From positions 5,580,001 to 5,644,000 of the forward strand of contig CP124680.1 in the NCBI GenBank assembly GCA_029961745.1: 64,000 nt of DNA, read 5' to 3'. Below are positions 29,536 to 47,218 of this stretch, one piece after another. The notes under the pieces are model-generated. The model worked only from the letters and a program-made list of their open reading frames with translations, did no database searches and had not been told where the DNA came from. The DNA comes from Nocardioides sp. L-11A. GTDB lineage: Bacteria; Actinomycetota; Actinomycetes; Propionibacteriales; Nocardioidaceae. Within the stretch, counting starts at the first letter, position 1. Every line of letters starts with the position of its first letter. Made by a program: the position numbers and the translations under genes.

Positions 29536-29548
29536 GCCGGGCCGGTCG

Positions 29549-32500
29549 TCAGCGGCCAGCCATCAGGTCGAGCTGTCGTTCGAGCGCCGCCGCGGAGGAC
29601 CGGAAGCCGGCGACGCTGTCCAGCTTGATCTGCTCGTAGCCACGGATGCCGTCGGGCAGGTCCACGAGCTCCTGGACGACGTCCGCCGTCGGGCCTCGCA
29701 ACTGGACCACGGCCCGCTCCACCAGGTCACGATAGAGCTCGGGAAGCTCCCGTTCGACCCGTCGCACCTCGCCGCGTCCGAACGGATCGAAGCGGGTCCC
29801 CCGCAGGCCCCGGAACGCGTACAGCACCCGGAAGACGACGCGGAACCACGGCCCCACCGCGATCTTGCGCCGTACGCCGAGGGCCCGCAGGATCGGCGGA
29901 TGCAGGCGGTAGGTGAAGCGTGCGTCCGCACCGAACGTCTCCCGGACCTGCTGGGCGAGCTCGGGGTCGAGGGAGAGCCGGGCGACCTCGTACTCGTCCT
30001 TGTAGGCCATCAGCTTGTACAGCTGACGGGCGTAGGAGTAGGCGAGCCGCCCGGTGGTGCCGAAGGCGTCCCGCTCCGCTCGCGCGACCCTCTCGACGTC
30101 GTGGCGGTAGCGGGCGGCGTACGCCTTGCCCTGGTAGGCCGTCAGGTCCCGCGCCCGCGCGTCGAGCAGGCGCTCCAGGTCGTCGTCACCCGGATCGTCG
30201 GGTGGCATCAGCGGCTCCCGCTCCGGGGTCCTCGCCCTGGCGGTCATCGCCGCGCGAACGCCGTCCGGATCGGCGACATAGCGCCGCCCCCATCGGAACG
30301 CCTGCAGGTTGCGCGCGACCGCGACGTCGTTCAGGGTGAGGGCCTGCTCCATGGTGGCCGGGCTGATCGGCAGCGCGCCGGCCTGCACCGCCGCTCCGAC
30401 GAGGAAGACGTTCGCATACTGGTCGTCTCCGAGCAGCGCGAGCGCCGCCTCCCGGGCATCGACCACAACGGCGTGCTCGCGGCGGGTCCGGCTCAGCACG
30501 CGCTCCACCGTGGCGCCGATCTCGGGGAAGGCCGAGCTCGGATCGCTCACCATGCGCCCCGTCGGCACCCGCGACGTCGAGAGCACCGCGATGGAACGGT
30601 CCACGGCGGCCGCCTCGAGGTGGGTGTCGTCAGCCGCGACCAGCAGGTCGCAGCCCAGATAGAGGTCGCACTGCCCGGGATCCACCTTGTTGGCACCCTG
30701 GAAGGGCGTCAGCCCGAGACGGACGTCGGAGACGACGGCACCGCCCTTCTGCGCCATGCCCATCTGGTCGAGGCCGCGCACGTACAGGCCTTCGATGGAC
30801 GCGGCGGTGGCGATGACCTGGGCGATGGTGACGACGCCCGTGCCGCCCATCCCGGTGATACGCAGGTTGAACCGGCTCACCCCGACGCGCACCTGCGGGT
30901 CCGGGAGGGACTCCGCCGCGAGGTCGCCGGAGGAGCCCGGAGCCGGTGCCGGACGTCCGCCGGCGGAGCCCGGTCTGACGCCGATGAAGGACGGGCAGTC
31001 CCCGTCGAGGCAGGAGAGGTCGGTGTTGCACGAGGCCTGATGGATCCGGGTCTTGCGGCCGAACTCCGTCTCGACCGGCTGGACCGACAGGCAGTTCGAC
31101 TTGACCCCGCAGTCGCCGCAGCCCTCGCACACCCGCTCGTTGATCATGACCCGCGTCGTCGCTTCGGGGACGCGGCCGCGCTTCCGCTTGCGGCGGAGCT
31201 CGGTCGCGCACTCCTGGTCGTTCACGATCACGGTGACGCCGTCGACGCCGGCCAGCTCCTCCTGCACAGCGACCAACCTGTCCCGGTGCACGACCTCGAC
31301 GTCGCGCGGCAGGCGGCTGCGCCGGTACTTCGCGGGATCGTCGGTGGTGACGACCGTCCTGGCGACGCCCTCGGCGGCCAGCGAGCGCACCAGGTCCGGG
31401 ACCGACATCACGCCGACGGCCTCCTGGCCGCCGGTCATGGCCACCGCGTCGTTGTAGAGGATCTTGTAGGTCATCCGCACGCCGGAGGCGATCGCGGCAC
31501 GGATCGCCAGACTGGCGGAGTGGTGGAAGGTGCCGTCGCCGACGTTCTGGATCAGGTGCTCCTGTCGCACGAAGGGAGCCATCCCGATCCAGCTCGCGCC
31601 CTCGCCACCCATCTGGGTGAAGCCGATGGCGGTGCCGACCCGCTCCTCGGGCATCAGCGCGGCCAGGGCCGAGCAGCCGATCCCCATCCCCACCAGCGTG
31701 CCCGGGGGCACCTGGGTCGAGCGGTTGTGCGGACATCCCGAGCAGAAGTACGGCGTGCGGCTGGCCACCGGCAGCAGCGGACGGCCGCCCGCGGGGCTGC
31801 CATCCGCCGGCAGCCGGCGGTCGCCGGGCAGCCGTGGTGCCAGAGCCCCCGCGATCAGTGCGGGTGGCAGATCAGCATGGGTGCGGAACAGCTCCCTGCC
31901 GTCAGGGGTTCGGCGGCCACAGATCCGCGGAGCATCTACACGGCCGTACAGGAGGTCCTTGAGGGCCGCCTCGATGCAGGAGCGCTTCTCCTCGACGACC
32001 ACGATCTCGTCGAGCCCGTGGCGGAACCGCTCCACGATCCCCGGCTCCAGCGGGGAGATCATGCGCAGCTTGAGCAGACGGATTCCGGTACCTGCGAGGT
32101 TCGAGGGGTCCAGGCCGAGGAGGGTCAGGGCCTGGCACACGTCCAGGTAGGTCGCCCCGGCGGCGACGATGCCCACCCGCGCGTCGGGATCGCCGGAGAT
32201 CACGTCGAGTCCGTTGGCCGCCGCGTAGCGGCGGGCGAGCTCGACCCGTTCGTTCATCAGTGACCGTTCCAGCCGGCCCAGCTGCGGCTGCAGGAAATGC
32301 GCGGACACCTCGTGGACGAACTCCGTGCCGTCGATCTCCCGGCTCGGGACCACCGGCTGGAACGGAGCCTCGCCCAGCCGGACCGTGGCGGCCCCGTCGA
32401 CGACATTGGTAGCGAGCTTCAGACCGGTCCACAGGCCGCAGAACCGCGACATCGCGATCCCGTGCAGACCCAGGTCCAAGATGTCCTGCGGGTCGGCGGG

Positions 32501-33025
32501 AACCAGCACGGGCATCCCGATCTCCGCCATGGCGACCTCGGAGGCGCTGGGCACGGTCGACGACTTCGCGATCGAGTCGTCACCGACGAGGACCAGCACA
32601 CCACCGTCGGGATCGGCACCCGCGAGATTCCCGTGGCGCAGCGCGTCGGTGGCCCGATCCAGACCGGGCGCCTTCCCGTACCAGATCCCCACGACGCCGT
32701 CCGCGGTCCGGTCGGGCGAGGCCGAGGCCAGCTGGGAGCCCAGGACCGCGTCGGCCGCGAGCTCCTCGTTGACCGAGGGCCGCAGGACGACGCCCGCCGC
32801 CTCCATCAGGGTGGAGCGTCGGGCCATCTCGAGGTCGTAGCCGGCCAGAGGCGAGCCCTCGTAGCCGGCGACCAGGGTCCGCGTCGCGCGACCTGCGGCG
32901 GTGTCGATGCGGTGCTGGTCGAGAGGGATCCGGACCAGTGCCTGCAGGCCCGACAGATGGAGCTCGCCCGATCGCCGCTCGTAGCGGTCGGCCAGGGCGA
33001 CATGCCGGCGGGTGGAGGCGCCCAT
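29549..33025 (-). CDS. Indolepyruvate:ferredoxin oxidoreductase, fused alpha-beta (IorA-IorB) type
   Basis: A 1158-residue single-chain enzyme. It has pyruvate-ferredoxin-oxidoreductase-type N-terminal domains, a TPP-binding region near residue 495 (QNVGDGTFHHSAS, then ILYND), a ferredoxin-like iron-sulphur cluster region near 631-665 (CEGCGDCGVKSNC, later SCLDGDCPSF), a gamma-type KOR domain from about 720 (GMGGTGVVTIAQVI, MGMAQKGGAVVSD) and a long C-terminal extension found in such bacterial fusions. It oxidatively decarboxylates aryl-2-oxo acids to acyl-CoA with ferredoxin as acceptor. The next gene upstream is 2 nt away. Last gene of the catabolic operon, pointing to an arylpyruvate-like intermediate. 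Confidence 0.92.
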   Translation of the reverse strand: MGASTRRHVALADRYERRSGELHLSGLQALVRIPLDQHRIDTAAGRATRTLVAGYEGSPLAGYDLEMARRSTLMEAAGVVLRPSVNEELAADAVLGSQLASASPDRTADGVVGIWYGKAPGLDRATDALRHGNLAGADPDGGVLVLVGDDSIAKSSTVPSASEVAMAEIGMPVLVPADPQDILDLGLHGIAMSRFCGLWTGLKLATNVVDGAATVRLGEAPFQPVVPSREIDGTEFVHEVSAHFLQPQLGRLERSLMNERVELARRYAAANGLDVISGDPDARVGIVAAGATYLDVCQALTLLGLDPSNLAGTGIRLLKLRMISPLEPGIVERFRHGLDEIVVVEEKRSCIEAALKDLLYGRVDAPRICGRRTPDGRELFRTHADLPPALIAGALAPRLPGDRRLPADGSPAGGRPLLPVASRTPYFCSGCPHNRSTQVPPGTLVGMGIGCSALAALMPEERVGTAIGFTQMGGEGASWIGMAPFVRQEHLIQNVGDGTFHHSASLAIRAAIASGVRMTYKILYNDAVAMTGGQEAVGVMSVPDLVRSLAAEGVARTVVTTDDPAKYRRSRLPRDVEVVHRDRLVAVQEELAGVDGVTVIVNDQECATELRRKRKRGRVPEATTRVMINERVCEGCGDCGVKSNCLSVQPVETEFGRKTRIHQASCNTDLSCLDGDCPSFIGVRPGSAGGRPAPAPGSSGDLAAESLPDPQVRVGVSRFNLRITGMGGTGVVTIAQVIATAASIEGLYVRGLDQMGMAQKGGAVVSDVRLGLTPFQGANKVDPGQCDLYLGCDLLVAADDTHLEAAAVDRSIAVLSTSRVPTGRMVSDPSSAFPEIGATVERVLSRTRREHAVVVDAREAALALLGDDQYANVFLVGAAVQAGALPISPATMEQALTLNDVAVARNLQAFRWGRRYVADPDGVRAAMTARARTPEREPLMPPDDPGDDDLERLLDARARDLTAYQGKAYAARYRHDVERVARAERDAFGTTGRLAYSYARQLYKLMAYKDEYEVARLSLDPELAQQVRETFGADARFTYRLHPPILRALGVRRKIAVGPWFRVVFRVLYAFRGLRGTRFDPFGRGEVRRVERELPELYRDLVERAVVQLRGPTADVVQELVDLPDGIRGYEQIKLDSVAGFRSSAAALERQLDLMAGR

Positions 33026-33027
33026 GC

Positions 33028-33795
33028 CTACGCCCCACCCGCCAGGCCGCCGTCCGGCAGGGGGACGGGGGACGGCAGCGGATCAGCGGTCAGCACGGTC
33101 CTGGCCGACCTGCTCAGATGACGGGCGAGATGGACGTCCCAGTACAGGGCACAGCACGTGGCTCCCGACCGCCAGACGGAGGCGACGTCGGAGGGATCGG
33201 GAACGCCCCAGCCGAACTCGACTCCGAGCCCGGCCAACGTGGTGATCACCTCGTGCAGCACCTCGTCGAATCCGCCGGGCCCGCCGCCCTCCTGTTCATA
33301 GTCGTCGCGCAGGTCCTTGGGGCCGAGCCAGAAGGTCGTCACGCACTGCGCCGCGGCGATCTGCTCGAGGGACCGCACCACGTCCATGGTCTCGACGATG
33401 ATGCTGACCGCGGGCTCGCGCTCGTACGAGGTGCCCCAGGCGGTTCCGGGTGTCACCTGGCGCGGCCTCCGCCCAGCGGGCGGATAGCTGAGCCAGGCGC
33501 ACGCCTGCTGGATCTCCCGCAACGTCCGCACCCGGGGGACGACGATCTCGTCCACGCCCATGTTGGCGTAGGTCAACAGCATGTCCGGCTCCTGGTTCTG
33601 GACACGGACCGCCGTTCGCGTCGCGCTGCCCGAGAGTCGACCGACCACCTCGCCGACCTGGACCGGCGTGAGTCCCGTGTTCTCCGCGTCCAGCCACAGG
33701 AAGTCCAGGCCGGCCTGCGCGACGGAGTCGATCAGCACCGGGTCGACCGAGGAGGTGAGCAGGCCCAGTTGGCGCGACCTCGGCGTCCTAGCCAT
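33028..33795 (-). CDS. HpcH/HpaI-family aldolase
   Basis: A 255-residue aldolase of the HpcH/HpaI (2,4-dihydroxyhept-2-ene-1,7-dioate) family: GLDFLWLDAENTGLTPVQV near the N-terminus, GVDEIVVPRVRT for the substrate/metal loop, and SIIVETMDVVRSLEQI with the metal-binding Glu. These class II enzymes cleave or form 2-oxo-acid aldols with a divalent metal. The ATG at 33795 lies inside the end of the upstream gene (8-nt overlap); an in-frame GTG at 33804 is an alternative. Its pyruvate-like product could link to the ferredoxin oxidoreductase downstream. Confidence 0.82.
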   Translation of the reverse strand: MARTPRSRQLGLLTSSVDPVLIDSVAQAGLDFLWLDAENTGLTPVQVGEVVGRLSGSATRTAVRVQNQEPDMLLTYANMGVDEIVVPRVRTLREIQQACAWLSYPPAGRRPRQVTPGTAWGTSYEREPAVSIIVETMDVVRSLEQIAAAQCVTTFWLGPKDLRDDYEQEGGGPGGFDEVLHEVITTLAGLGVEFGWGVPDPSDVASVWRSGATCCALYWDVHLARHLSRSARTVLTADPLPSPVPLPDGGLAGGA

Positions 33796-35347
33796 GGCTG
33801 CCACCGAGCCGCGAGAGGACGTTGCGGGTGATACGCGCGACCAGCGGATCGCCGCCCTCCAACCCGTGGACCCAGTCTGTGCAGCCGGTGGTGAACACGG
33901 TGCCTCCCTCGGTGTAGATCCCCATCACCGCCTGGCCGTGTCCCAACCGGACGGCCGCCGGGTCGTCGGCCTCTTCGGCCCGTTCGCGGTCGACGCCGAG
34001 CACGCGCCAACGGGTGTAGGCCAGGTCGGACATTCCCCCGTTGACACCTTCCGTGGTCGGCGGCAGGTCGCGCTTCGCCCAGAGCCGTGCCGGCGAGGTG
34101 GCCAGCACCTCGAACGACGTCGGCGTGCCGTCGGCATGCGTGGGTCGGGGCAGTCCGTCGGGCCCGTAGGTGAGCTCGCACCCGTCCGCCTCGTAGCCCA
34201 CCACCCCGTGCTTGGCGCCGAGCAGATCGCCGTACCTCAGGTCGGTCCCGTCGAAGATCCAATGGTCGGGTCGCCACACGTGGTAGCCGCCGGAGCCGCG
34301 CGGGGTCGCCTGACCGGCGCGGACGTAGCCGCCTCGGGTGAAGCTGACGCCGGTCAGGCGGTTCTCCGGCCGGCCGACGACCTGGTCCGACCACATCCCG
34401 GTCTGCAGCGGCGTGCCCCGCTCGGGGTCGGCGGTCGGCGCGGCGTACTTGTAGCAGGTCATCGCGCGTCCGTCGTCCTCGAGGCGGACCTGCCAGAAGA
34501 CCGCATTGCCCGTCAGGAAGGCCGCGTTCCCTCCGCGCGCGATGTAGTCCTCCATCGTGTCCCGCATGCCGGCCGACCAGTACTCGTCGTGCCCGACGCT
34601 GAGCACCAGCTGTCGGCCCTGGAGGATCTCGGGGCGCAGCTCGAGATCGGAGCTCACCGCGTAGTCGAACGCGAAGCCCTCCCGCTCGGCCCACGAGATG
34701 AAGGGCCGCTCCCACTGGTGGAACCCCGAGCCGTAGCACCACCCGGACACGCGATAGGCGTCGACCATCCCGCTCTGCTCGTCGAAGTCGGGGTCGTAGC
34801 GGCCCATCGCCGTCGCGGCGCGCAGCTGGATGTCGGGCGGGCGCGCCAGGAACCCGGGCGCCAAGGGTCGCTCCCAGGAGACCCGCACCCCGCCGGTGTA
34901 GAGGCTGCGACTGTGGTTCCAGTCGTTGTAGGCGTTGTAGGTCGTGTCGGTCAGCAGAAGCAGCGTGCGGGGACGCGTGGCCGGGGGGTCGGCACTGCGG
35001 ACCACGAAGTACGCCGGCTGATCGAGCTCGTCGAGCGACTTGTCGGCCCAGTTGAACCGGACCTCGTAGTAGCCCGGGGTCCAGTCGGGCGCGACCTCGA
35101 TCTCGAAGGAGACCGGCCAGCCGCAGCCACGCTCCCCGACGTCGTCGGGCACCTCACGGCGATGGCCCTCGATGCCACTGCGCGCCCACACGACCCGGCG
35201 GTTGGCGCCGCGACGGGCGATCTGGACGTCGAAGTGCGGCCGCTCCGCGCTGCAGTGCACCCGCACGGTCTGACCCGCCACGAAGCTCCGCCCACCGCCG
35301 ACATAGCCCTCGACGGCCGCCCTGAGCATGGTGTCCGGGGATCTCAC
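33788..35347 (-). CDS. N,N-dimethylformamidase large-subunit-like amidohydrolase
   Basis: A 519-residue protein with the hallmark GHDEYWS motif (HDEYWS at 253-258) and a TTYNAYNDWNHSRSLY stretch (135-150) of the dimethylformamidase beta-subunit family. The N-terminal 120 residues form a beta-sandwich-like domain (FVAGQTVRVHCSAERP, APDWTPGYYEVRF). Characterised dimethylformamidase hydrolyses DMF at a mononuclear iron held by two tyrosines and a glutamate, and pairs with a small subunit; no small-subunit gene is visible here. The GTG start overlaps the upstream stop by 4 nt. Probable role: hydrolysis of a small or N-substituted amide. Confidence 0.82.
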   Translation of the reverse strand: MRSPDTMLRAAVEGYVGGGRSFVAGQTVRVHCSAERPHFDVQIARRGANRRVVWARSGIEGHRREVPDDVGERGCGWPVSFEIEVAPDWTPGYYEVRFNWADKSLDELDQPAYFVVRSADPPATRPRTLLLLTDTTYNAYNDWNHSRSLYTGGVRVSWERPLAPGFLARPPDIQLRAATAMGRYDPDFDEQSGMVDAYRVSGWCYGSGFHQWERPFISWAEREGFAFDYAVSSDLELRPEILQGRQLVLSVGHDEYWSAGMRDTMEDYIARGGNAAFLTGNAVFWQVRLEDDGRAMTCYKYAAPTADPERGTPLQTGMWSDQVVGRPENRLTGVSFTRGGYVRAGQATPRGSGGYHVWRPDHWIFDGTDLRYGDLLGAKHGVVGYEADGCELTYGPDGLPRPTHADGTPTSFEVLATSPARLWAKRDLPPTTEGVNGGMSDLAYTRWRVLGVDRERAEEADDPAAVRLGHGQAVMGIYTEGGTVFTTGCTDWVHGLEGGDPLVARITRNVLSRLGGSHG

Positions 35348-36516
35348 AGGAAACGGGCCGGGTCGAAGAGGGCCGGGTCGCAGCTCGGCTGCAGGGACCC
35401 GCCGTGCACGAGCAGGTCACGCACCAGCTCGCCGGTGGCCGCCGCGAGGTGGATCCCGCGATGGGTGTGACCGGTCGCGAGGTAGGCGCCGCGCAGGCCG
35501 GGCACCGCTCCGACCAGGGGCCGGGTGTCACGCGAGAGCGGACGGATGCCGGTGATGTGCTGGCCGACGGTTGCGAACTTGACCGTCGGCAGCACCTCGG
35601 TGGCCTGGCGCAACAGCTCCTCGCGCGCCTCCGGGCTCGGCGGCGGATGCGGGTCGGCCACCGCCTCGTTCTGGTCGACGATCCAGTTCTCGCGATCGTC
35701 GAAATCGCGGCCACCGGTGCTGCCGATGCTGAGGAACCCGTCGACCCGGCTGATCAGGTGTCCCCGGCGGGGAGTCGACAAGATCGCCTGCAACGGCTGC
35801 GAGGGCCAGCGCAGCATCAGGCGCTCCCCGCGCAGGGGACGCACCGGGACCGTGTAGCCGGTCCACTCCGAGGCCAGCGCGGCGGAGGCGCCCATCGCGA
35901 GCACCACGTTGTCGCAGGCGATCGTGCCCTGCTTGTGGGTCACGCCCACGACCCGGTCGCCACGTCGGGCCAGACCGGTGATCGTCGTCGGGAACAAGGC
36001 GGCGCCGAATCGCTCGGCGGAGCGCATGAACGCGTGGGACAGTCGGTCGGCCGGCACCTGGAGGGCCTCGGGCTCGAACGCTGCGCCGCGCACATCGCGG
36101 GTGATCGACGGCTCGATCGCCCGTACGTCGTCGGGATCGAGCCAGCGCACGCTCATCACCTCGGACTGCCACTCGAGGTCGGCCCGCACCTGGCGCTCCT
36201 CCTCGTCGTCGATGGCCAGGCGCATCGCCGGGCGGCACTGGTAGCCGGTCCGGACGCCGGAGAGATCCTCCAGCACCGGCACGATCGCCTTGGTCGAGTG
36301 GTGGCCGCGCACCCCCCAACGCAGGTACTCCGCGTCGTCGAAGTCGGCCGAGATCGAGTACATCGCACCCGTCGCGCAGGTCGATGAGCCCGCGGCCACC
36401 CGATCCTGCTCGACCACCATCACCTTCAGGCCGGCTGCCGCGAGGTGATAGGCGCACGAGGTGCCCACCGCCCCCGCACCGACCACCACGACGTCCGGAC
36501 TCTGGCTCATTGACAC
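35344..36516 (-). CDS. DAO-family FAD-dependent oxidoreductase
   Basis: A 390-residue glycine/D-amino-acid oxidase-type flavoprotein: Rossmann motif GAGAVGTSCAYHLAAAG (GxGxxG), a CATGAMYSI loop near the flavin, and the C-terminal signature GIRPLSRDTRPLVGAVPGLRGAYLATGHTHRGI. Family members oxidise amines or amino acids to imines with O2 or another acceptor. The GTG at 36516 has GAGGAG eight bases upstream; the ATG at 36510 is a weaker choice. An 85-bp AT-rich gap upstream may hold a promoter. Confidence 0.87.
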   Translation of the reverse strand: MSMSQSPDVVVVGAGAVGTSCAYHLAAAGLKVMVVEQDRVAAGSSTCATGAMYSISADFDDAEYLRWGVRGHHSTKAIVPVLEDLSGVRTGYQCRPAMRLAIDDEEERQVRADLEWQSEVMSVRWLDPDDVRAIEPSITRDVRGAAFEPEALQVPADRLSHAFMRSAERFGAALFPTTITGLARRGDRVVGVTHKQGTIACDNVVLAMGASAALASEWTGYTVPVRPLRGERLMLRWPSQPLQAILSTPRRGHLISRVDGFLSIGSTGGRDFDDRENWIVDQNEAVADPHPPPSPEAREELLRQATEVLPTVKFATVGQHITGIRPLSRDTRPLVGAVPGLRGAYLATGHTHRGIHLAAATGELVRDLLVHGGSLQPSCDPALFDPARFL

Positions 36517-36601
36517 GTCAACTGCTCCTCACGGTGAAGTACCACAGGTGTTCCAATGGCTTGAATTAGGATATTACTCATATACCAGTTCGAGATCGAG
36601 G
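36517..36601 (-). promoter_or_regulatory. AT-rich gap, candidate internal promoter/operator in the catabolic operon
   Basis: The only sizeable gap in the run of coupled genes between 29.5 and 42.1 kb. In strong contrast to its GC-rich surroundings it contains GGATATTACTCATATACC (36569-36586). On the transcribed strand this reads GGTATATGAGTAATATCC; its GTATATGA recurs at 46141-46148 before the nitrilase gene, and TGGTATATGA resembles TGGTATGTCA at 45203-45212 in the GntR gap. TAATAT could serve as -10. Confidence 0.45.
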
Positions 36602-38140: not shown

Positions 38141-39207
38141 GACGCCGGTCCTTCCGTCGAGCGCACCGGGAGCCGGCGCCGGGTCCCGTCCGCCTCAGCG
38201 GGCACCGCACCGCCGCCGCGGCTCGCCGCGGTCTCGCTCCGAGCCGCGTCGGCGCGGATGCAGGCCACCCGATGGAGGCCACGCGCCGGCCGCCCGCCGG
38301 AGGGGGCCAGCTCCGGGTCGATCGTGGCGCAGGCGTCGATGGCCGCCGCGCACCGCGGGCGGAAGCGGCACCCGGACGGCAGGGCAGCCAGGTCCGGCGG
38401 CTCCCCGGGCAGCGCGGGGCGAGCCGTGTCCCGCGAGCGCTCCGGATCCGGTACGGCGGCCAGCAGCGCCTGCGTGTAGGGATGCAGTGGCGAGGAGAGG
38501 ACGACGTCCGGACGCCCTTCCTCGACCACGCGCCCGGCGTACATCACCACGACCCGGTCCGCATACTGCGCAGCCGTGATGAGGTCGTGGGTGATCATCA
38601 CGATGGCGATCCCCGCATCCCGCAGGTCCGCGAACAGGCGCAGCACGCCGGCCCGCATCGAGACGTCGAGCATGGAGACGGGCTCGTCCGCGATCAGGAC
38701 CTCCGGCTCGAGCACGATCGCCGAGGCGATCGCGACCCGCTGCAGCTGACCGCCCGACAACTGGTGGGGATAGCGCCCCAGATAGCTGTGCGCGGAAGGG
38801 ATCCCGGCTCGCTCCAACGCGGCCACGACCAAGCTCCGTCGCTCCGGCGCGCTCCTCGTCACCCGGTGCACCAGCAACGGCTCGTTCACCACGTCCTCGA
38901 CGGTGAAGCGGGGATCGAGCGCCTCGTAGGGGTCCTGACAGATCAGCTGGATCGACCGGAGCAGCTCCCGGCGCTGACGTCCCCGGCTGGCGACCAGGTC
39001 GATGCCGTTCACCCGGATCGAGCCGGCCGCCGGTCTGACCAGCCCGACGGCCGCCATCGCGGTGGATGTCTTTCCGCATCCGGACTCGCCGACCACAGCG
39101 ACCAGCTCGCCGCCGCGCACGGTGATGGAGACGTCGTCCACCGCCGTGCGTGCGCCGTAGCGGACATCGAGTCGATCGATCGCCAACGCCGGCGCATCCT
39201 CGCTCAC
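38137..39207 (-). CDS. Oligopeptide/dipeptide-type ABC transporter ATP-binding protein (DppF/OppF-like)
   Basis: A 356-residue ATPase: Walker A GESGCGKTS, signature LSGGQLQRVAIASAI, Walker B LIADEPVSMLDVS, and a C-terminal oligopeptide-transporter extension with the CRFRPRC...AC cysteine cluster that in this family can bind an iron-sulphur cluster. The GTG at 39207 overlaps the previous stop by 4 nt; the long open frame upstream is a shadow. A basic tail of about 40 residues follows the conserved domain. Confidence 0.9.
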   Translation of the reverse strand: MSEDAPALAIDRLDVRYGARTAVDDVSITVRGGELVAVVGESGCGKTSTAMAAVGLVRPAAGSIRVNGIDLVASRGRQRRELLRSIQLICQDPYEALDPRFTVEDVVNEPLLVHRVTRSAPERRSLVVAALERAGIPSAHSYLGRYPHQLSGGQLQRVAIASAIVLEPEVLIADEPVSMLDVSMRAGVLRLFADLRDAGIAIVMITHDLITAAQYADRVVVMYAGRVVEEGRPDVVLSSPLHPYTQALLAAVPDPERSRDTARPALPGEPPDLAALPSGCRFRPRCAAAIDACATIDPELAPSGGRPARGLHRVACIRADAARSETAASRGGGAVPAEADGTRRRLPVRSTEGPAS

Positions 39208-40193
39208 GGAATCTCCTCGGTCGGGGGGTGGTGAAGATGGCATCGGGCCTGCTGCAGGGCAGTCGCCACGGGCAGCAGGGCAGGGCCACGCGAACCACAC
39301 GGCCCGAAGCGATCGGGGCAACGTGGGGCGAAGCTGCAGCCCGCCTGGTCCACACCGGGTCGCGGCGGTGCACCTGGGATCGAGGCCAGCTCGCGTCCGG
39401 GGTCCGACAGCCGTGGACTGGCGTCGATCAGCAGCCGCGTATACGGATGAGCAGGCTCGTGCAGCAAGGTCCCGATCCGTCCGGTCTCGACGATCTGGCC
39501 GCCGTACATCACCGCTGCCCGGTCGCACACCTCGCCGATGACGCCCATGTCATGGGAGACCAGCACCAGCGCGGCTCCGGTCTCCGCACACGCGTTCTCC
39601 AGGGCCGTGAGGACCTGCGCCTGCACGATCACATCCAGTGCCGTGGTCGGCTCGTCCGCGAGCAGCACCCGCGGCTCGCACACGACGGCCATCGCGATCG
39701 CCACTCGCTGGCGCATGCCGCCGGACAGCTCATGGGGGTAGCGCCGCGCAACCTCGGTGCGCAGACCGACGAGCTCGAGAACGCTGTGCACGCGCTCGCG
39801 CACTCCTGCTCCCGACCCGGCGCCACGGCGGGCCGCCTCCCCGATCTGGCGGCCGATCGTCACCACCGGGTTGAGCGAGTTCATCGCACCCTGGAAGACG
39901 ACGGCGATCTCGCTCCACCGGCGGCGACGCACGTCCCGCTCGCCCGAGCCGAGGATCTCCGTGCCGTCGATGCGGACCTCGCCGCCCACGGTGGCGTCGG
40001 CACCGAGCAGGCCCATCAGCGCCATCAGCGTCGTGGTCTTGCCGCAGCCGGACTCGCCGATCAATCCGAACCGCTCGCCGCTGCCCACACTGAAGGTGAC
40101 ATCGCGGACCAGGTGGAGGTCGCGTCCCGCACCCGACCGCAGGGTCACGTCCAGACCGCGCACGTCCAGGCAGCCGGTCGTCGTGGTACTCAC
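39204..40193 (-). CDS. Oligopeptide/dipeptide-type ABC transporter ATP-binding protein (DppD/OppD-like)
   Basis: A 329-residue ATPase: Walker A GESGCGKTT, the MNSLNPVV Q-loop region characteristic of OppD, signature LSGGMRQRVAIAMAV, Walker B VLLADEPTTALDV, and the C-terminal GCSFAPRC/C cysteines. GTG start overlapping the permease stop by 4 nt. With DppF it powers import of the compound bound by the lipoprotein encoded at 42.1-43.8 kb. Confidence 0.92.
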   Translation of the reverse strand: MSTTTTGCLDVRGLDVTLRSGAGRDLHLVRDVTFSVGSGERFGLIGESGCGKTTTLMALMGLLGADATVGGEVRIDGTEILGSGERDVRRRRWSEIAVVFQGAMNSLNPVVTIGRQIGEAARRGAGSGAGVRERVHSVLELVGLRTEVARRYPHELSGGMRQRVAIAMAVVCEPRVLLADEPTTALDVIVQAQVLTALENACAETGAALVLVSHDMGVIGEVCDRAAVMYGGQIVETGRIGTLLHEPAHPYTRLLIDASPRLSDPGRELASIPGAPPRPGVDQAGCSFAPRCPDRFGPCGSRGPALLPVATALQQARCHLHHPPTEEIP

Positions 40194-41107
40194 GATGCCT
40201 CCTTGGCTGCGGCAGCGCGGCGGAAGGAGCGCAGGCCGAGGTGCGAGACCGCGAGTCGGGGGTTGGCCCGCTGCTCGAAGCGCCGCCCGATGACGGTGGT
40301 GCTGAGCAGCACCAGGCCGATGGCCAGGCCCGGCGGCAGGAGGACCCACCATGCCTCGGCCGTGATCGCTCCCCTCTCGAAGGAGTCGGCGATCATCTGG
40401 CCCCACGATGTGGTGTCCCGGTCAGCGAGGCCGAGGAACCGCAGCGCGGCCTCGAAGAAGATCGCATGGCCGATCGCGAGCGCCGTACTCGCACCGAGCA
40501 GCGGCGCAACCTGGGGCAGGACATGGTGGATCAGGGTCCGTGCGTGGCTGGCGCCCATCGCCCGGGCACGGCGGACGTAGAGCCGCTGGCGCACCGTCTT
40601 GGCCTGGGACCGGATCACCCGCGCCGTACCCGGCCAGGAGAGCAGCGCGATGATCACGATGGTGTTGACCAGCCGGGTGCCGTAGAGAGCGGCGACCACG
40701 ATCATCACCGGGAGCACGGGAATCACCAGGAAGAAGTCCGTGGTGCGCATCAGTACCGCCTCGAACCAACCACCGAAGTAGCCGCTGACCAGCCCGGCCA
40801 CACCTCCCAGGATCACGGTCATGACGCCGGCGAGGACGCCGACGAGCAGGGAGACCCGCGCACCCCAGAGGAGCTCGGCCCCGACATCGGCCCCGGCGTC
40901 GTCCAGGCCGAGGAGGTGTGCTCCGGACGGGGTCGCATAGGGCGCTCCGACCTGGGCACCCGATCCGTCCGGGTACAGGGCCGGCGCCACGACGGCGCCG
41001 ACGGTGAAGACCAGCAGGACGGTGACACTGAAGACGAGTCCCGGGGACAGCCGCCCGCGCCGGGTCCGCCGCCGACGCCGGGCCAGCAACTCCACCGCCG
41101 CGCTCAT
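40190..41107 (-). CDS. Oligopeptide/dipeptide-type ABC transporter permease (DppC-like)
   Basis: A 305-residue permease with six predicted helices: the first after the basic RRRRRTRRGR segment, an N-terminal periplasmic loop with HLLGLDDAGADV as in DppC/OppC, and the coupling loop RARAMGASHARTLIHHVLP. The ATG at 41107 overlaps the upstream stop (ATGA). Confidence 0.92.
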   Translation of the reverse strand: MSAAVELLARRRRRTRRGRLSPGLVFSVTVLLVFTVGAVVAPALYPDGSGAQVGAPYATPSGAHLLGLDDAGADVGAELLWGARVSLLVGVLAGVMTVILGGVAGLVSGYFGGWFEAVLMRTTDFFLVIPVLPVMIVVAALYGTRLVNTIVIIALLSWPGTARVIRSQAKTVRQRLYVRRARAMGASHARTLIHHVLPQVAPLLGASTALAIGHAIFFEAALRFLGLADRDTTSWGQMIADSFERGAITAEAWWVLLPPGLAIGLVLLSTTVIGRRFEQRANPRLAVSHLGLRSFRRAAAAKEAS

Positions 41108-42081
41108 CGAGCCGCCCCCGCCCGGCGGACCCGCGGATCCAGCAGGCTGTAGGCGGCATCCGCGAGCAGGTTGAACAGCACGACGGAGACGGTGAACACC
41201 AAGAAGGCGCCCTGCATCATCGGGTAGTCCCGCGCGACGATCGAGTCGTAGATGGTCCGCCCCACGCCGGGCCAGGAGAACACCACCTCGATCAGGATCG
41301 CCCCGCCCACCATGGCCCCGATGGACAGCCCGATCAGCGTGACCGTCGGGAGGAGCGCGTTGCGCAGCGCATGACGACGCAGGACGTAGCGCGGCCGGAA
41401 GCCCTTCGCGCGAGCAGTGAGGACGTAGTCGTCGCTCAGCGTCTCGACCATCGACGAGCGCATGATCAGGGTGTACTGGCCGAACATCACCAGCCCCAGG
41501 GTCAGCGCGGGCAGGAGGAGGTGGCGACCGAGGTCGGCGAGGTACTGCGTCGGGGTCGGGTCGATCAGGAACTGGTCGACCATGCCGCCGGTGGGCAGCG
41601 TCCCGGCGAACAGGAAGAGCAGGACCATGCCGATCCACTGCGGCGGCAGCGAGTACATGAAGGTCGCGAACGTCACCGCTCCGTGATCCACCGGCCGGCC
41701 CCGGTAGGCGCCCGCGAGGATTCCGAGCCCGATCCCCAGCACGATCGCGATCAGTAGCCCGAGCCCGACCAGCGGCAGGGTGTTGGCGATGGCGTCGAGC
41801 AGGTTGTCGGTGACCGGCTGACGGTTCACGAAGGACACACCGAGGTTCCCCTGGGACAACTGCTCGAGGTAGCGCACGTACTGCACCACCATCGGCTGGT
41901 CGAGTCCGAACTCACGGGTCAGCTGGTCCTGGAGCTGTCGACTGCCCTGAGGGATCCGACTCATCTGGTCGACCGGGTTGCCGGGCGCGAGACGGAACAG
42001 GAAGAAGTCGAACGTCACGGCCAGCCAGATCAGGAGTCCGGCTCCGGCCAGCCGCCTGCCGATCACGCGCAGTGATGCCAC
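41104..42081 (-). CDS. Oligopeptide/dipeptide-type ABC transporter permease (DppB-like)
   Basis: A 325-residue permease with six helices. The first helix (LLIWLAVTFDFFLFRLAPGNPV) ends in the RLAPGNPVD motif typical of DppB, and the coupling loop YVLTARAKGFRPRYVLRRHALRNA is complete. The start is uncertain: GTG 42081 gives the usual length but lies directly against GGAGG (42082-42086 complement), GTG 42066 is 15 nt away, and an upstream GTG at 42123 would overlap the binding-protein gene. Confidence 0.88.
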   Translation of the reverse strand: MASLRVIGRRLAGAGLLIWLAVTFDFFLFRLAPGNPVDQMSRIPQGSRQLQDQLTREFGLDQPMVVQYVRYLEQLSQGNLGVSFVNRQPVTDNLLDAIANTLPLVGLGLLIAIVLGIGLGILAGAYRGRPVDHGAVTFATFMYSLPPQWIGMVLLFLFAGTLPTGGMVDQFLIDPTPTQYLADLGRHLLLPALTLGLVMFGQYTLIMRSSMVETLSDDYVLTARAKGFRPRYVLRRHALRNALLPTVTLIGLSIGAMVGGAILIEVVFSWPGVGRTIYDSIVARDYPMMQGAFLVFTVSVVLFNLLADAAYSLLDPRVRRAGAAR

Positions 42082-42091
42082 CCTCCGGTCC

Positions 42092-43804
42092 CTACGCGAG
42101 ACGCAGCTGCGTGACCTGGTCACGCGAGACTGCGTTGAACGGACCGAATCCGGACATCTGGTAACCCGTCAGCTTCGGTCCTGATGCCGCCAGCGCGTTG
42201 ACATAGACCAGCGCGAGCATGGCCCGGGCCTCGAAGAAGCGGTTCTGCATGTCGTGCACCATGCGCCGACGCTCGTCGACATCGAGGGTCGCGTTCTGCT
42301 CGACGTAGGTCCGGTCGAACTCGGGATCTGAGTAGTGGCAGTTGTTGAAGCCGCCGATCGAGTCGGTGATGAAGTGATCCAGCACCGCCGAGGGATCCGG
42401 CGAGGCCGGTAGGAAGCCCCACACGGCGATGTCGTTGGTGAGGTACTTGCCGTCAGGGGCGCTGATCGCGTCGATCATCGCGGCGGCATCCAGCGTGTTG
42501 GGCTTCACCTTGACGCCGAGCTGCTCCCAGCCGTCGCTGATGATCTGCAGGATCCGGTCGCCACCCGCCAGACCGCTGGCGAGATTCACCTGGTAGGACA
42601 TCTTCTCCGCCCCGGCCATCCGGATGCCGTCGGAGCCGCGAGCAAGACCGAGTCCGTCGAGGATCTCGTTGGCCGCGGCGATGTCGAACGCGTCGGGGAC
42701 GACGCTGTCGTCGTGCCACACGCCCATCGCGGGATAGACGAGCGACCCCGCGGCCTCGCCCATGCCGAACAGGACGACCTCGACGATGCGAGCCCGGTCG
42801 ATGCCCATCGACAGGGCCCGGCGCACCTGCGGGTCCAGCAGCTCGCGGTGCTGGGTCTTCTTCGGGTTGACGTTGAAGTAGAGGTTGTTCATCACGAAGC
42901 CGGGAGCCTGTCGAGTGCTCAACCCCTTGTCCTTGAGTCGGTCCAGACTCCCGCCGACGGTGCTTGGCGAGAGCAGCGCCACCGCATCGATCTCACTGGC
43001 CTCCAAGGCCTTGATCATCGCGTCGGGCGCGCCGTAGGTCACGAATCCGAGGGTCGAGATCGACTGCTTCTCGCCGTACCAGTCGGCGTGCGCCTTCAGC
43101 AGCACGATCTCCTTGGGGGTGTACTTGGTGAGCACGAACTGTCCGCCACACACCGTCTGCTCGTCGTACGCCACCGTCTTGAGACCTGCGCCATCGCCCG
43201 ACGCGGGCTCGGTCCAGATGTGCTCGGGGAGGATCACGACCCTGGTGAGCAGGCCCAGTGCGTTCGCGATGGGCTCGCTGTAGCGGACCACCAGGGTGTG
43301 CTCGTCGGGAGCGTCGGCCGCGGTGATGCCGACGACATACTGCGCCAGGAGCGCAGCGGCCGATCCGCTGTGCCGGACCAGGGTATTGATGGTGAAGGCC
43401 GCATCGCGCGCCGTGACCGGCTTGCCGTCCGACCACGCGGCCTTCGTCTTGAGGCGGAAGGTGATGGAGGTGCCGTCGGCACTCACCTCGTAGTCGTCGG
43501 CCAGGTCGGGCTCGACGGTGAAGTCATCGCCCTCCAACCGCAGCAGCGTGGGATAGAGCATGTGGGTCGCGATCACCGCCGCGGCACTCTGCTGGACGAA
43601 GGGATTGAGCGAGTCCATCTCCGAGGTCAACCCGATGCGGAGGGTCGACGAGCTCGACCCGGACGATCCGGAGCCGCCGCACGCGGCCAGCAGCGTGGGC
43701 AGGCCGGCGACGACAGCGCCGCCGACCCCCAGGCGAAAGAGCATGGAGCGCCGGGACAGTACGGCCCCTGCCACATCAGTGCTCACGTCATCGTTGTTGC
43801 TCAC
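42092..43804 (-). CDS. Oligopeptide/dipeptide-type ABC transporter substrate-binding lipoprotein (SBP family 5)
   Basis: A 570-residue binding protein. The N-terminus has a twin-arginine signal (LSRRSMLFRLGVGG) ending in the lipobox LLAAC, so it is exported folded by Tat and lipidated. The mature protein shows family-5 hallmarks (SEMDSLNPFVQQSAAAV, WSDGKPVTARDAAFTI, VRRALSMGIDRARI). GTG start with GGAGG six bases upstream. Genome context suggests an amine/amide or aryl compound as ligand rather than peptides. An 82-bp gap separates it from the decarboxylase gene. Confidence 0.9.
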   Translation of the reverse strand: MSNNDDVSTDVAGAVLSRRSMLFRLGVGGAVVAGLPTLLAACGGSGSSGSSSSTLRIGLTSEMDSLNPFVQQSAAAVIATHMLYPTLLRLEGDDFTVEPDLADDYEVSADGTSITFRLKTKAAWSDGKPVTARDAAFTINTLVRHSGSAAALLAQYVVGITAADAPDEHTLVVRYSEPIANALGLLTRVVILPEHIWTEPASGDGAGLKTVAYDEQTVCGGQFVLTKYTPKEIVLLKAHADWYGEKQSISTLGFVTYGAPDAMIKALEASEIDAVALLSPSTVGGSLDRLKDKGLSTRQAPGFVMNNLYFNVNPKKTQHRELLDPQVRRALSMGIDRARIVEVVLFGMGEAAGSLVYPAMGVWHDDSVVPDAFDIAAANEILDGLGLARGSDGIRMAGAEKMSYQVNLASGLAGGDRILQIISDGWEQLGVKVKPNTLDAAAMIDAISAPDGKYLTNDIAVWGFLPASPDPSAVLDHFITDSIGGFNNCHYSDPEFDRTYVEQNATLDVDERRRMVHDMQNRFFEARAMLALVYVNALAASGPKLTGYQMSGFGPFNAVSRDQVTQLRLA

Positions 43805-43886
43805 GGAAAACCTCCGCCTTGTCGTGGGATCCGAGCGGGGTCGGCTCGACACCGGTCGGTGATGCGTTGACGGCCGTGGGGGCCGG

Positions 43887-45155
43887 TCAGGTGTAGCCGA
43901 TGTCGCCGTCGGCGACGTCGGCCCCGTGCGCCACGTCCGAGATGACGGCGACCAGGTCGAGAAGCAGCTCGTCGACCAGCTCGTCGTCCACGGCATCACA
44001 GGTCAGGTGGATGAGCGGCGGATGGGCGACGCCGAAGACCGACCAGCCGCGCCCGGCCAGACCCTTGCCGATCTCGGTGATGTCCAGGTCCGCGGCGCCG
44101 AGCGCCACCAGGGACATCTCGCTGCCGACGACGTGCAGCTCCGGGATCCTCTCGACACCAGCGATCACCCGGTCGCGCACTGCCATCGTGCGACGCGCGG
44201 TGTCCAGATAGCCCTCGCGGCCCAGGTAGCGCAGTACCGCCCAAGCCCCGGAGATCGCACCGGCCGGACGGGAGCCCACGAACGCGTCGGTCCGGTACAG
44301 GCCGTTCGACCAGTCCTCGGTCTCGAAGCCCTGGAACTGTCGCAGCTCCAGGTCGGCGTAGAACAGCGTGGAGCAGGGCTTGGGCGCGTAGCCGTACTTG
44401 TGCAGGTCGACGCTGACGGAGGACACCCCGGCGACGTCGAAGGCGAAGGACGGCACGTCGTACCCGAGCTCACGGGCGAACGGCGTGAGGCAACCCCCGA
44501 CGCAGGCATCGACGTGCAGCCAGAGGTCACGCTCGCTCGCCAGCTGGCCGACCGCCTCGATCGGGTCGTAGACGCCGTGCGGCCACGAAGGCGCCGAGGC
44601 GACCAGGGCTGCGGTCCGATCGGTGATCGCGGCCGACATCGCATCGAGGTCGACACGGAACTCGTCGGTCAGCGGCACCCGGACGAGTCGTACGCCCAGG
44701 AAGTGGCAGGCCTTCGTGAACGCGGCGTGCGCGGAGAAGGGCGCGATGATCTCCACCTCGCCCCGAGGGATGCCACGACGTTCGTGGGCCCACTCCCGGA
44801 TGGAGTGGACTGCGTTGAAGATGCTGTCCGAGCCCCCGGAGGTCAGCACGCCGCACTCCGCACTCGTATGGAGCTCTGCGGCCCAGGACGAGAGCACCTC
44901 GTCGTGCATCGCCTTCAGGCTCGGCAGCGCGCGGGCGAAGAGGCCGTTGATGCTGAAGAACCGCTCGTAGCCGCGACGAGCCGCCTCCTGGATCTGCTCG
45001 TTGCCCCGCAGCGAGAACATGCCGAACCTGCCCTGGCGGACCGGCGGGATCTGGGCGTAGAGGGCGTCGAGCCTCTCGGCCACGTCATCCAGGGCCATTC
45101 CCCGCGGCGGGAAGACGTTGTCGAGCGAACGGCCGGACTGCGACGAGTGGGACAC
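43887..45155 (-). CDS. PLP-dependent decarboxylase/lyase, sphingosine-1-phosphate lyase-like group II family
   Basis: A 422-residue fold-type I PLP enzyme. The PLP lysine is Lys253 in SVDLHKYGYAPKP; the phosphate loop is TSGGSDSIFNAV (about 105-116) and the aspartate is in LWLHVDACVGG. HKYGYAPKP is the signature of S1P lyases and related amino acid decarboxylases. Likely reaction: decarboxylation or retro-aldol cleavage of an amino-acid-like substrate. GTG start with GAGAGGAAG upstream. First gene of the minus-strand catabolic run, divergent from the GntR regulator. Confidence 0.87.
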   Translation of the reverse strand: MSHSSQSGRSLDNVFPPRGMALDDVAERLDALYAQIPPVRQGRFGMFSLRGNEQIQEAARRGYERFFSINGLFARALPSLKAMHDEVLSSWAAELHTSAECGVLTSGGSDSIFNAVHSIREWAHERRGIPRGEVEIIAPFSAHAAFTKACHFLGVRLVRVPLTDEFRVDLDAMSAAITDRTAALVASAPSWPHGVYDPIEAVGQLASERDLWLHVDACVGGCLTPFARELGYDVPSFAFDVAGVSSVSVDLHKYGYAPKPCSTLFYADLELRQFQGFETEDWSNGLYRTDAFVGSRPAGAISGAWAVLRYLGREGYLDTARRTMAVRDRVIAGVERIPELHVVGSEMSLVALGAADLDITEIGKGLAGRGWSVFGVAHPPLIHLTCDAVDDELVDELLLDLVAVISDVAHGADVADGDIGYT

Positions 45156-45431
45156 GTGAGCTTCCTCTCAGGGGTGTGAGTGGAATATAACCATCAGATG
45201 ATTGGTATGTCACTGGTGTATTACATGTCGGACAACCGGATCCCTCGTCGCCGAGGAAGGGGAGCGGACACGGTCTCCGCGGCCGGCCTGCGTGGGCGTT
45301 GATAGGCCGGTGATGTCGAGCCGCTATCCTGGATCGTCAGCGCGAAGCCGCGCGGCCCGATCGGCGAGGAACGCAGGCGGCACCAGCTCGCGACACTGCG
45401 GCCCCGTCGCCTGCACCCAGGGAGTTCCACC
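45156..45431. promoter_or_regulatory. Divergent promoter region between decarboxylase and GntR genes
   Basis: A 276-bp gene-free stretch whose left part is AT-rich. It holds an imperfect dyad around ACCATCAGATGATTGGT (45190-45206) followed by TGGTATGTCACTGGTG (45203-45218), which resembles the GGTATATGA motif at the 36.5 kb gap. It is the likely site where the GntR protein controls both directions. I found no clear coding frame in it. Confidence 0.5.
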
Positions 45432-46115
45432 ATGCCGAGACAGACCGCCAAGACGCCCGCCGCCCGAGTCGTCAAGCCGCGGTTGGCCGACCAGGCCTAC
45501 GAGCGTCTCGTGGAGCTGGTCGTGTCCGACCTGCCCGCCGGTTCGCGGCTGTCGGAGGCCGAGCTGTCCACCACGCTCGGCATGTCCAAGACGCCGGTGC
45601 GCGAGGCTCTGCTCCGTCTCGAGTCCGAGGGCCTCGTGTCGCCGATCCCCCATGTCGGATACCTGATCCCCCATCTGTCGTACTCGGAACTGCGGGAGGC
45701 GCTCGAGGTACGCGAGGCGATCGAGGGGTATCTCGCCATGTTGGCGGCGGACCGGATCGACGACGTGGAGCTCAGCGAGCTGCGCGCGGTCTTCACGCAG
45801 ACCGAGGCCGGCCTCGGGCAGGATCAGGTCGCCGACATCGACGCGATGAAGCGGTTCAACGCCCTGCTTCACGGAGCGATCCTGCAGGCCGCCGGCAACG
45901 CCAAGATGGAGCAGATCCTGGCCACCGTCCGCAACCAGGTCAACCGGGGCATCAAGGAGCTCATCGGCAACGATCAGCGGCGCTACAAGCTGTCCTTCGA
46001 CGAGCACGGCGTCATCCTCGAAGCGCTCGAGGCACGCGACCCGGCACGCGCGGAACGGGCCATGCGCGAGCACGTGGAGTCGGTCAACGTGCACATCCTG
46101 CGTCGGTTCCGCTGA
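45432..46115 (+). CDS. GntR-family transcriptional regulator, FCD (FadR) subfamily
   Basis: A 227-residue regulator: winged HTH at about 18-85 (LADQAYERLVELVVSDLPAGSRLSE, then LGMSKTPVREALLRLESEGLV) and an all-helical FCD ligand domain (EALEVREAIEGYLAMLAADR, FNALLHGAILQAAGN, FDEHGVILEALEARDPARAERAMREHV) with the histidines that bind a metal in this family. Such proteins respond to organic acids. It sits between the divergent catabolic operon and the nitrilase gene and probably controls both. Confidence 0.92.
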   Translation: MPRQTAKTPAARVVKPRLADQAYERLVELVVSDLPAGSRLSEAELSTTLGMSKTPVREALLRLESEGLVSPIPHVGYLIPHLSYSELREALEVREAIEGYLAMLAADRIDDVELSELRAVFTQTEAGLGQDQVADIDAMKRFNALLHGAILQAAGNAKMEQILATVRNQVNRGIKELIGNDQRRYKLSFDEHGVILEALEARDPARAERAMREHVESVNVHILRRFR

Positions 46116-46136
46116 CCGATCCACCATTGGAGTACC

Positions 46137-46158
46137 GGTAGTATATGATCTGACTACC
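46137..46158. promoter_or_regulatory. Inverted repeat GGTAGT-N10-ACTACC before the nitrilase gene
   Basis: A perfect 6-bp dyad lying between the GntR gene and the amidase gene. Its centre contains GTATATGA, the 8-mer also present on the minus strand at 36585-36578 upstream of the flavin oxidase gene. Candidate GntR operator controlling the amidase. Confidence 0.5.
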
Positions 46159-46205
46159 ACCGCTGCGGTGGTGTCTGATTCCGGTTCCCAGGAGGAGTGA
46201 CCCCC

Positions 46206-47177
46206 GTGCGACTGATCAGCCGGGTCGACGACCTGCCCCCGTCGCCGGCCCGCACGCGACCGAGCGGACGGCCGGCGCTGCGGGTCGCCCTTGTCCAGCA
46301 CCGGTGGGACCCCGACCCCGCCCGGCTGCGCTCGCGGCTGCACGACGCCATCGGACAAGCGGCCGGGGCGGGCGCGGCTGTGGTGTTCCTGCCCGAGCTC
46401 ACTCTGCAGCGATACCCGGCCTTCGTTCGCGGTGGCCCCGAGGCGGCCGAGCACGCCGAGGCCCTGACGGACGGGCCCACCGCGACGTTCGCCCGAGAGG
46501 CGGCCCGGAGGTTCGACCTCTTCGTCCACGCCTCGCTCTACGAGCGAGCGGACGACGGCGGCGCGCTGGGCTACAACACGGCGATCCTCGTCGACCCCTC
46601 CGGAGCGATCGTCGGACGCACCCGCAAGCTCCACATCCCGGTCACCGACGGCTACTACGAGGACACCTACTTCCGCCCCGGCCCGGCCGACGACCCGCAT
46701 CCGGTCTACGAGATCCCCCGGCTGGGCGGCTGCCGCATCGGTCTGCCGACCTGCTGGGACGAGTGGTTCCCCGAGCTGGCCCGCGCCTATTCGCTCGCCG
46801 GAGCCGAGATCCTCGCCTACCCGACGGCGATCGGATCCGAGCCGGAGCACCCCGACTTCGACACCCGGCCCCTCTGGCAGCAGGTCATCGTCGGCAACGG
46901 GATCTCCGCGGGCACGTTCATGGTCGTCCCCAACCGGACCGGAACCGAGGGCGATCTCACGTTCTACGGCTCCTCGTTCATCTCCGACCCGTACGGCCGC
47001 GTGCTGGTCCAGGCCCCCCGCGACGAGGAGGCGGTGCTCGTGACCGACCTCGATCTCGACCAGCGGCGCGACTGGCTGGCGCTCTTCCCGTTCCTCACCA
47101 CGCGACGTCCGGACACCTACGCCGCGCTGGTGGAGCCGGTGGACCGCGGCCGCCCGTTCGGAGCCACCGCCCGATGA
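46206..47177 (+). CDS. Nitrilase-superfamily amidohydrolase (N-carbamoylputrescine amidase-like)
   Basis: A 323-residue carbon-nitrogen hydrolase. The Glu-Lys-Cys triad is Glu64 (LPEL), Lys141 (RKLHIP) and Cys183 (PTCWDEWFPE); the CWDxWFPE form is typical of N-carbamoylputrescine/N-carbamoyl amidases. It would hydrolyse an amide or N-carbamoyl group in the cytoplasm. The GTG at 46206 has GGAGGAG (46191-46197) at 8 nt; an in-frame GTG at 46197 overlaps that ribosome binding site. It completes the catabolic locus on the plus strand. Confidence 0.9.
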   Translation: MRLISRVDDLPPSPARTRPSGRPALRVALVQHRWDPDPARLRSRLHDAIGQAAGAGAAVVFLPELTLQRYPAFVRGGPEAAEHAEALTDGPTATFAREAARRFDLFVHASLYERADDGGALGYNTAILVDPSGAIVGRTRKLHIPVTDGYYEDTYFRPGPADDPHPVYEIPRLGGCRIGLPTCWDEWFPELARAYSLAGAEILAYPTAIGSEPEHPDFDTRPLWQQVIVGNGISAGTFMVVPNRTGTEGDLTFYGSSFISDPYGRVLVQAPRDEEAVLVTDLDLDQRRDWLALFPFLTTRRPDTYAALVEPVDRGRPFGATAR

Positions 47178-47218
47178 CTGGATCTCTCGGGGGAAACCGC
47201 GCCCGATAGCCTGGCCGC

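Follow-up and report, generated by a model that had tools for sequence, protein, structure and literature searches.

Thirteen genes forming a rare, apparently mobile block in a soil actinomycete: a possible sign of an undescribed degradation route

Several described systems resemble parts of the locus reported here, a block of thirteen genes in a 64,000-nucleotide stretch (the window) of the complete 5.68 Mb genome of Nocardioides sp. L-11A. The agmatine deiminase pathway (AguA-AguB) includes an N-carbamoylputrescine amidohydrolase, AguB; in the Medicago enzyme, according to PMC4812014, Glu187 fixes the charge and length of the substrate and binds its free amino end. N,N-dimethylformamidase (DMFase), with the iron ligands Y399, Y440 and E521 and the catalytic H519, is grouped here with N-acetyl-(R)-beta-phenylalanine acylase. 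For the sphingosine-1-phosphate (S1P) lyases, which depend on pyridoxal phosphate (PLP), the table of PMC6148460 has the substrate-phosphate Tyr in all five enzymes, and the Ala and His positions of that site vary there. The HpaI/GarL class II pyruvate aldolases have a catalytic His, the role of which is treated in PMC8560999, and a further family comprises the fused indolepyruvate ferredoxin oxidoreductases (IOR). Relatives of all of these stand together in the thirteen genes. With somewhat less than even confidence, they are proposed to be a transferred, GntR-controlled cassette that would import and dismantle a peptide-sized conjugate carrying an amide group together with a ureido (N-carbamoyl) amine.

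The original prediction of thirteen genes with the coordinates and broad families in Table 1 was borne out using Pfam and NCBIfam, and all have open frames. Eleven are on the minus strand: IOR, the HpcH/HpaI-type protein (HpcH), the DMFase-like protein (DMFA), a flavin amino acid oxidase (DAO), an aldehyde dehydrogenase (ALDH), the five genes of an ATP-binding cassette (ABC) importer including its solute-binding protein (SBP), and the PLP enzyme. The regulator gene gntR and the nitrilase gene nit (product NIT) are on the plus strand. The same 13/13 genes, with order and strand kept, were found in two further genomes (G290 and G014), both Nocardioides, the genus of the host. In G290 the cluster is at the same place, with nfo on one side and FemX on the other; in G014 it is on another contig than the nfo-FemX site, which is there without the cluster. 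The thirteen genes behave as one accessory cassette in Nocardioides, beyond a chance neighbourhood. Identity of IOR was 96% in G290 and 77% in G014. The ratio dN/dS between window and G014 was 0.06-0.30 for 12 genes; the DppF value (0.314) and the DppD value against G290 were discarded as distorted by paralogous matches. GC content was 70.3% in the cluster vs. 71.9% and 71.4% in the flanks.

Ten genomes yielded a FemX gene, and its surroundings were compared in 5 of them (G014, G298, G280, G305, G192). In 5/5 of these relatives the segment at about 29536-47198 is lacking, and nfo and FemX are separated by 0.57 to 5.7 kb of other DNA. Homology to the window ends at 29535-29538 and restarts at 47197-47224; what was added is therefore hardly more than the thirteen genes. 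The first proposal, that a conserved rpsF-to-PBP gene order is interrupted, was supported only for nfo and FemX, the genes directly next to the cluster. The length of the nfo-FemX interval differs in each of the five relatives (L142-L146), which looks like a variable insertion spot.

To estimate how often the genes occur together, 294 Nocardioidaceae genomes, the host included, were searched, with only the best few candidates per genome scored. DMFA was found at >=80% identity in 3/294 genomes (any match at 1e-60: 9/294), the PLP gene at >=80% in 3/294 (all other listed matches <=42%) and DAO at E 1e-100 in 3/294, and these matches fall in the identical three genomes. Nitrilase matches at 1e-80 were found in 27/294, 24 of them outside the cluster genomes with 64-72% identity. 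The predicted co-occurrence of the gene set therefore held for the DMFase-like, PLP and DAO genes and failed for the nitrilase. A common paralogue of the PLP gene at about 40% identity was also seen, 179/294 genomes having some match to the PLP gene at 1e-40, in nearly all cases this paralogue. In a class-wide search DMFA was found at 1e-120 in 3/394 genomes, the host and two at 50-51%. The DMFase-like family itself is common, with 2,696 relatives among 7,998 scored candidates and at least 580 confirmed of at least 591 pattern matches in contigs. The best 80 of these confirmed stretches (DMFA profile, genome contigs, 39-48% identity) and nine other loci (L103, L104, L135-L139, L151, L152) make 89 loci; no other cluster gene (>=50% over 100 aa) was found at them, where 37 of the 80 span >=20 kb and part of the neighbourhood is out of view for the rest. 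Plasmid searches returned relatives at <60% identity only.

Five of the ten minus-strand junctions are 4-nt overlaps, fewer than the "mostly" first described; HpcH and DMFA overlap by 17 nt, IOR and HpcH are spaced by 2 nt, and SBP/PLP and DAO/ALDH are separated by 82 bp and 85 bp, respectively. Because the 85-bp gap contains a block conserved in G290 and G014, the minus-strand genes are probably two transcription units, besides gntR-nit, and the single eleven-gene run was given up. When the three loci were aligned, the PLP gene proved to be preceded by a promoter-like block and DAO by the conserved one. In the 64 kb window the 9-mer GAKTRRTAT has two occurrences, one ahead of the PLP gene and one ahead of DAO; each 20-kb relative locus likewise has two, only at those places. 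Its expectation in simulated sequence was 0.28 per 64 kb. GntR may bind this motif. Upstream of gntR, a 29-nt block is identical in the three loci though the surrounding non-coding DNA has diverged, and it is without the 9-mer.

It is quite unlikely that two unrelated pathways, one of PLP enzyme, importer and ALDH with gntR-nit and one of DAO, DMFA, HpcH and IOR, travel together by chance. The own conserved block in the 85-bp gap fits such a split. One unnamed HpcH relative and one 68% DMFA relative are each on a contig of 5415 bp (P0005/P0243), which suggests, and does not show, that they are neighbours on one metagenome contig; a DMFA-like protein of Nonomuraea cavernae (69% identity) is without an HpcH partner listed under that species. 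These points are opposed by the same motif at both promoter regions and by the presence of both units together in 3/3 genomes, at two sites.

Judged from its relationships, NIT is an AguB relative without AguA, because its relatives adjoin agmatine deiminase genes and the three cluster genomes gave no match to such a gene. The closest relative in the Protein Data Bank (PDB) is N-carbamoylputrescine amidohydrolase, and NIT keeps the Glu-Lys-Cys triad and second Glu (E67, K144, C186, E155). When the 17 residues named for the Medicago enzyme in PMC4812014 were mapped by eye, 12 were kept: the triad, the second Glu, 7/8 pocket-wall residues (Y73, P148, Y153, W187, W190, A211, I212) and Glu187 (E215). 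The differences are at Trp277 (F297 here, also changed in the ten other relatives aligned) and at further entrance residues, Asp190 (H218) and, listed for their carbonyls, Asp126, Pro128 and Cys276 (V149, D151, L296). The ten relatives deviate from the Medicago enzyme at these same five places, with some variation among them (L163 has P at 296).

Ten of the 25 non-cluster places (the seven nearest and three more distant, in nine genomes) were sampled for the neighbourhood of the nitrilase. An agmatine deiminase gene is directly beside it in 9/10 loci; at the tenth, L169 (G302), it is 4.7 kb away. Except for ALDH-type matches of 28-38%, no other cluster gene was found at the ten loci. Agmatine deiminase (PF04371) was detected in 0/3 cluster genomes and in 3/3 comparison genomes (G286, G049, G046), and a protein query, run without a positive control, again gave 0/3. 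The cluster gene thus shares with the agmatine deiminase pathway its AguB-type product and its 64-72% relatives, whereas it adjoins a GntR gene and is divergent from the PLP gene. In a 13-row tree the cluster nitrilases form one side of a branch with 99/98 support. A nitrilase unrelated to polyamine enzymes was rejected on the agmatine-deiminase-linked kin and the tree. The N-carbamoyl substrate class named in the original prediction was thereby strengthened. A second AguB relative of G286 (L170), beside an agmatine deiminase gene, has a translation without the catalytic Cys, through deletion or sequence error.

The PLP enzyme shares family and PLP site with the S1P lyases, which are its best solved relatives in the PDB and score far higher than plain group II decarboxylases, so that the latter assignment, made at first, was rejected. 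Of the PLP-binding residues in the PMC6148460 table, 7/8 are identical (T169 is S109 here; mapping by eye, Tyr482 outside the alignment). Of the substrate-phosphate residues in the same table (A103, Y105, N126, H129, K317), 2/5 are kept (N70, K259), and F47, L49 and F73 stand at the Ala, Tyr and His, in a context of amide and amino-acid genes. The phosphate-site changes are common to the seven closest homologues, and an Arg near the site (R43) is nearly invariant in a 19-row alignment. Because substrate-phosphate residues are lost, the substrate is predicted to be without phosphate, possibly an amino acid.

DAO scored 176.7 bits with the ThiO model, under the cut-off of 250.8, and its Arg325 aligns with Arg302 of BsGO, which presumably binds the substrate carboxylate. 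ALDH matched 43 NCBIfam models and scored under the cut-off of each of the 25 that were listed. The nearest likeness of the binding protein, a weak one, is to family 5 proteins for peptides, for nickel and for opines. The joining of importer and regulator in one catabolic gene set, as originally proposed, found support.

A rather unlikely alternative is that the PLP enzyme would act, like S1P lyase, as a retro-aldolase on a beta-hydroxy-alpha-amino acid, giving an aldehyde for ALDH and glycine for DAO, with the amidases releasing this amino acid from a conjugate of the N-acyl or N-carbamoyl type. This would suit the S1P lyase family of the PLP enzyme, the ThiO/glycine-oxidase likeness of DAO with its kept Arg302 equivalent, the position of ALDH at the end of the transcription unit of the PLP gene, and a Sulfitobacter plasmid, where a PLP relative (35%) has ALDH and AMP-binding ligase genes beyond one regulator gene. 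The loss of 3/5 substrate-phosphate residues speaks against it, however, and IOR and the AguB-type nitrilase would be left unexplained.

DMFA has a DMFase-type fold, and the model indicates that this fold is common with N-acetyl-(R)-beta-phenylalanine acylase. The first model, with a predicted local distance difference test (pLDDT) score of 63, was later replaced; the fold search with the first model gave identical best families. Set against the DMFase iron ligands and catalytic His given above, Y140, E255 and H253 of DMFA are invariant in 78/78 sequences. A counterpart of Y440 is absent from the aligned site, and Y150 (78/78) is a candidate second Tyr. Unlike the two known enzymes, which are of 772-776 aa, DMFA is of 519 aa, its second Tyr ligand is not at the aligned position, and none of the 13 cluster genes resembles the small subunit. 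With DMFA and NIT, the claim of two unrelated amidases in the cluster was upheld. On rhizobial and Aminobacter plasmids (L135, L136, L138), DMFase-like or S1P-lyase-like genes are near amino acid/peptide ABC importers, and some of these loci also carry M24 peptidases, aminotransferases or hydantoinases; these neighbourhoods suggest that such genes have a broader part in the breakdown of amides or amino acids.

HpcH shares with the HpaI/GarL aldolases the family, an Arg (Arg67, Arg70 in HpaI) and the two acidic residues E138 and D164, to which we attribute a metal role. Where HpaI has its His45, this protein has N42, and its five fellow members have Y or F. Six relatives, itself included, were found among 5.8 billion proteins at the sensitivity of the search, the others being from N. 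carbamazepini and four unnamed proteins. A working HpaI-type aldolase, as in the original prediction, was rejected, the catalytic His being missing in 6/6 members found.

IOR matches the fused family over its full length (NF009589, 1405 bits vs. a cut-off of 816). A second fused IOR is in the same genome, 46% identical (G000:C1:5216832-5220260). In another reading, considered improbable, the cluster would degrade an aromatic amino acid or amine with an N-acyl or N-carbamoyl group, through an arylpyruvate, to an aryl-acyl-CoA. This reading would draw on the IOR family, the fold DMFA has in common with the beta-phenylalanine acylase, matches of ALDH to phenylacetaldehyde dehydrogenase models (below cut-off) and a second IOR in G014 that adjoins a Glu/Leu/Phe/Val-type dehydrogenase. 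The NIT pocket, however, is similar to the pocket of an enzyme acting on an unbranched C4 amine, and no sequence feature shows an aromatic substrate; the aromatic part of the original prediction, traced to the IOR family name and the acylase likeness only, was not supported.

In the favoured route, the conjugate would be taken up by the family 5 ABC importer and its amide bond opened by the DMFase-type metallo-amidase. The S1P-lyase-fold PLP enzyme would decarboxylate (or C-C-cleave) the amino-acid half to an N-carbamoyl-amine, from which the AguB-type nitrilase would release amine, CO2 and ammonia; such a supply of N-carbamoyl-amine would explain an AguB without agmatine deiminase. ALDH would oxidise an aldehyde derived from the amine. 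The glycine-oxidase-like flavoprotein would oxidise the other half, and IOR would convert the resulting 2-oxo acid to an acyl-CoA; the HpcH-like protein would act on that 2-oxo acid. A narrower version, held to be very doubtful, is an agmatine-independent way to N-carbamoylputrescine: the PLP enzyme with its rebuilt phosphate pocket would decarboxylate a citrulline-type ureido amino acid that the DMFase-type acylase frees from the imported conjugate, the recruited AguB would finish, and the His-less HpcH-like enzyme would serve the acyl half.

Several observations weigh against the favoured route. None of the cluster genes was recognisable as a putrescine oxidase or transaminase, and the sequence of the PLP enzyme fits decarboxylation and C-C cleavage alike. 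NIT differs at 5/17 of the residues named for the Medicago enzyme, mostly as in the ten other relatives, and is below the AguB equivalog cut-off (NCBIfam TIGR03381, 204 bits vs. 410); this score and the separate branch of the cluster nitrilases mean that its substrate may have shifted. Despite the 69% DMFA, no HpcH relative named from Nonomuraea cavernae is listed and no PLP-gene relative of that name is among the best 120, many entries in both being nameless. The 9-mer was fitted to the sites it marks, so that its rarity is partly by construction, and the stricter GAGTRRTAT matches one of the two sites in the window, which leaves a candidate operator and not a proof.

Searches for the gene combination, for the host names, for DMFase-like proteins and for the single enzymes gave no published match in the open-access literature, in agreement with the earlier statement that no described pathway has this gene set; most subscription papers lie outside that literature, and the absence is weak evidence. 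As far as searched, the enzyme kinds are known and the combination is new, the unusual parts being AguB without AguA and the HpcH orphan. The proposed route would add a way in which soil actinomycetes degrade a nitrogen compound with an amide or ureido group and would show AguB recruited away from agmatine metabolism. It would also provide roles that can be assayed for the DMFase-like family, for an S1P-lyase relative with an altered phosphate site and for the HpcH subfamily, of which six members were found. One binding protein and two promoters make the substrate question directly testable.

Table 1. Features of the thirteen-gene locus, in window positions.
Feature	Position	Strand	Evidence or remark
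IOR, fused 2-oxoacid:ferredoxin oxidoreductase (indolepyruvate ferredoxin oxidoreductase family, DUF6537)	29549..33025	-	Pfam PF20169, PF01558, PF02775; NCBIfam NF009589
HpcH/HpaI-type protein, orphan subfamily	33028..33804	-	PF03328; R67, E138, D164 kept, N42 replaces catalytic His
DMFA, DMFase-like amidohydrolase	33788..35347	-	
DAO, glycine-oxidase-like flavin amino acid oxidase	35344..36516	-	PF01266
Candidate operator GAGTAATAT upstream of DAO unit	36571..36579	-	three-locus alignment, motif count
ALDH, betaine/aminobutyraldehyde/phenylacetaldehyde dehydrogenase-like	36602..38140	-	PF00171
DppF-type ABC ATPase	38137..39207	-	PF00005, PF08352
DppD-type ABC ATPase	39204..40193	-	PF00005, PF08352
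DppC-type permease	40190..41107	-	PF00528
DppB-type permease	41104..42081 (start uncertain; ORF extends to 42123)	-	PF00528, PF19300
SBP, family 5 solute-binding protein	42092..43804	-	PF00496; twin-arginine and lipobox-like N-terminus (by eye)
PLP enzyme, S1P lyase family	43887..45155	-	PDB 3mad match, E 2.1e-81
Promoter-like GTGACA-N18-TATATT before PLP-ABC-ALDH unit	45184..45213	-	by eye
Candidate operator GATTGGTAT overlapping promoter-like element before PLP gene	45200-45208	-	
29-nt block upstream of gntR	45303..45331	.	identical in three loci
GntR-family regulator	45432..46115	+	best NCBIfam model TIGR03338, 95 bits, cut-off 271.5
NIT, AguB-type N-carbamoylputrescine amidohydrolase homologue	46197..47177	+	PF00795; E67, K144, C186, E215
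Segment missing from nfo-FemX interval	29536..47198	.	five relatives compared

The flanks of the G014 cluster (L147, L148, contig C23) carry further genes of amino-acid catabolism: two Leu/Phe/Val-type dehydrogenases, 2-oxoacid dehydrogenase E1 subunits and a second IOR, along with a PucR-type regulator and a DAO gene.

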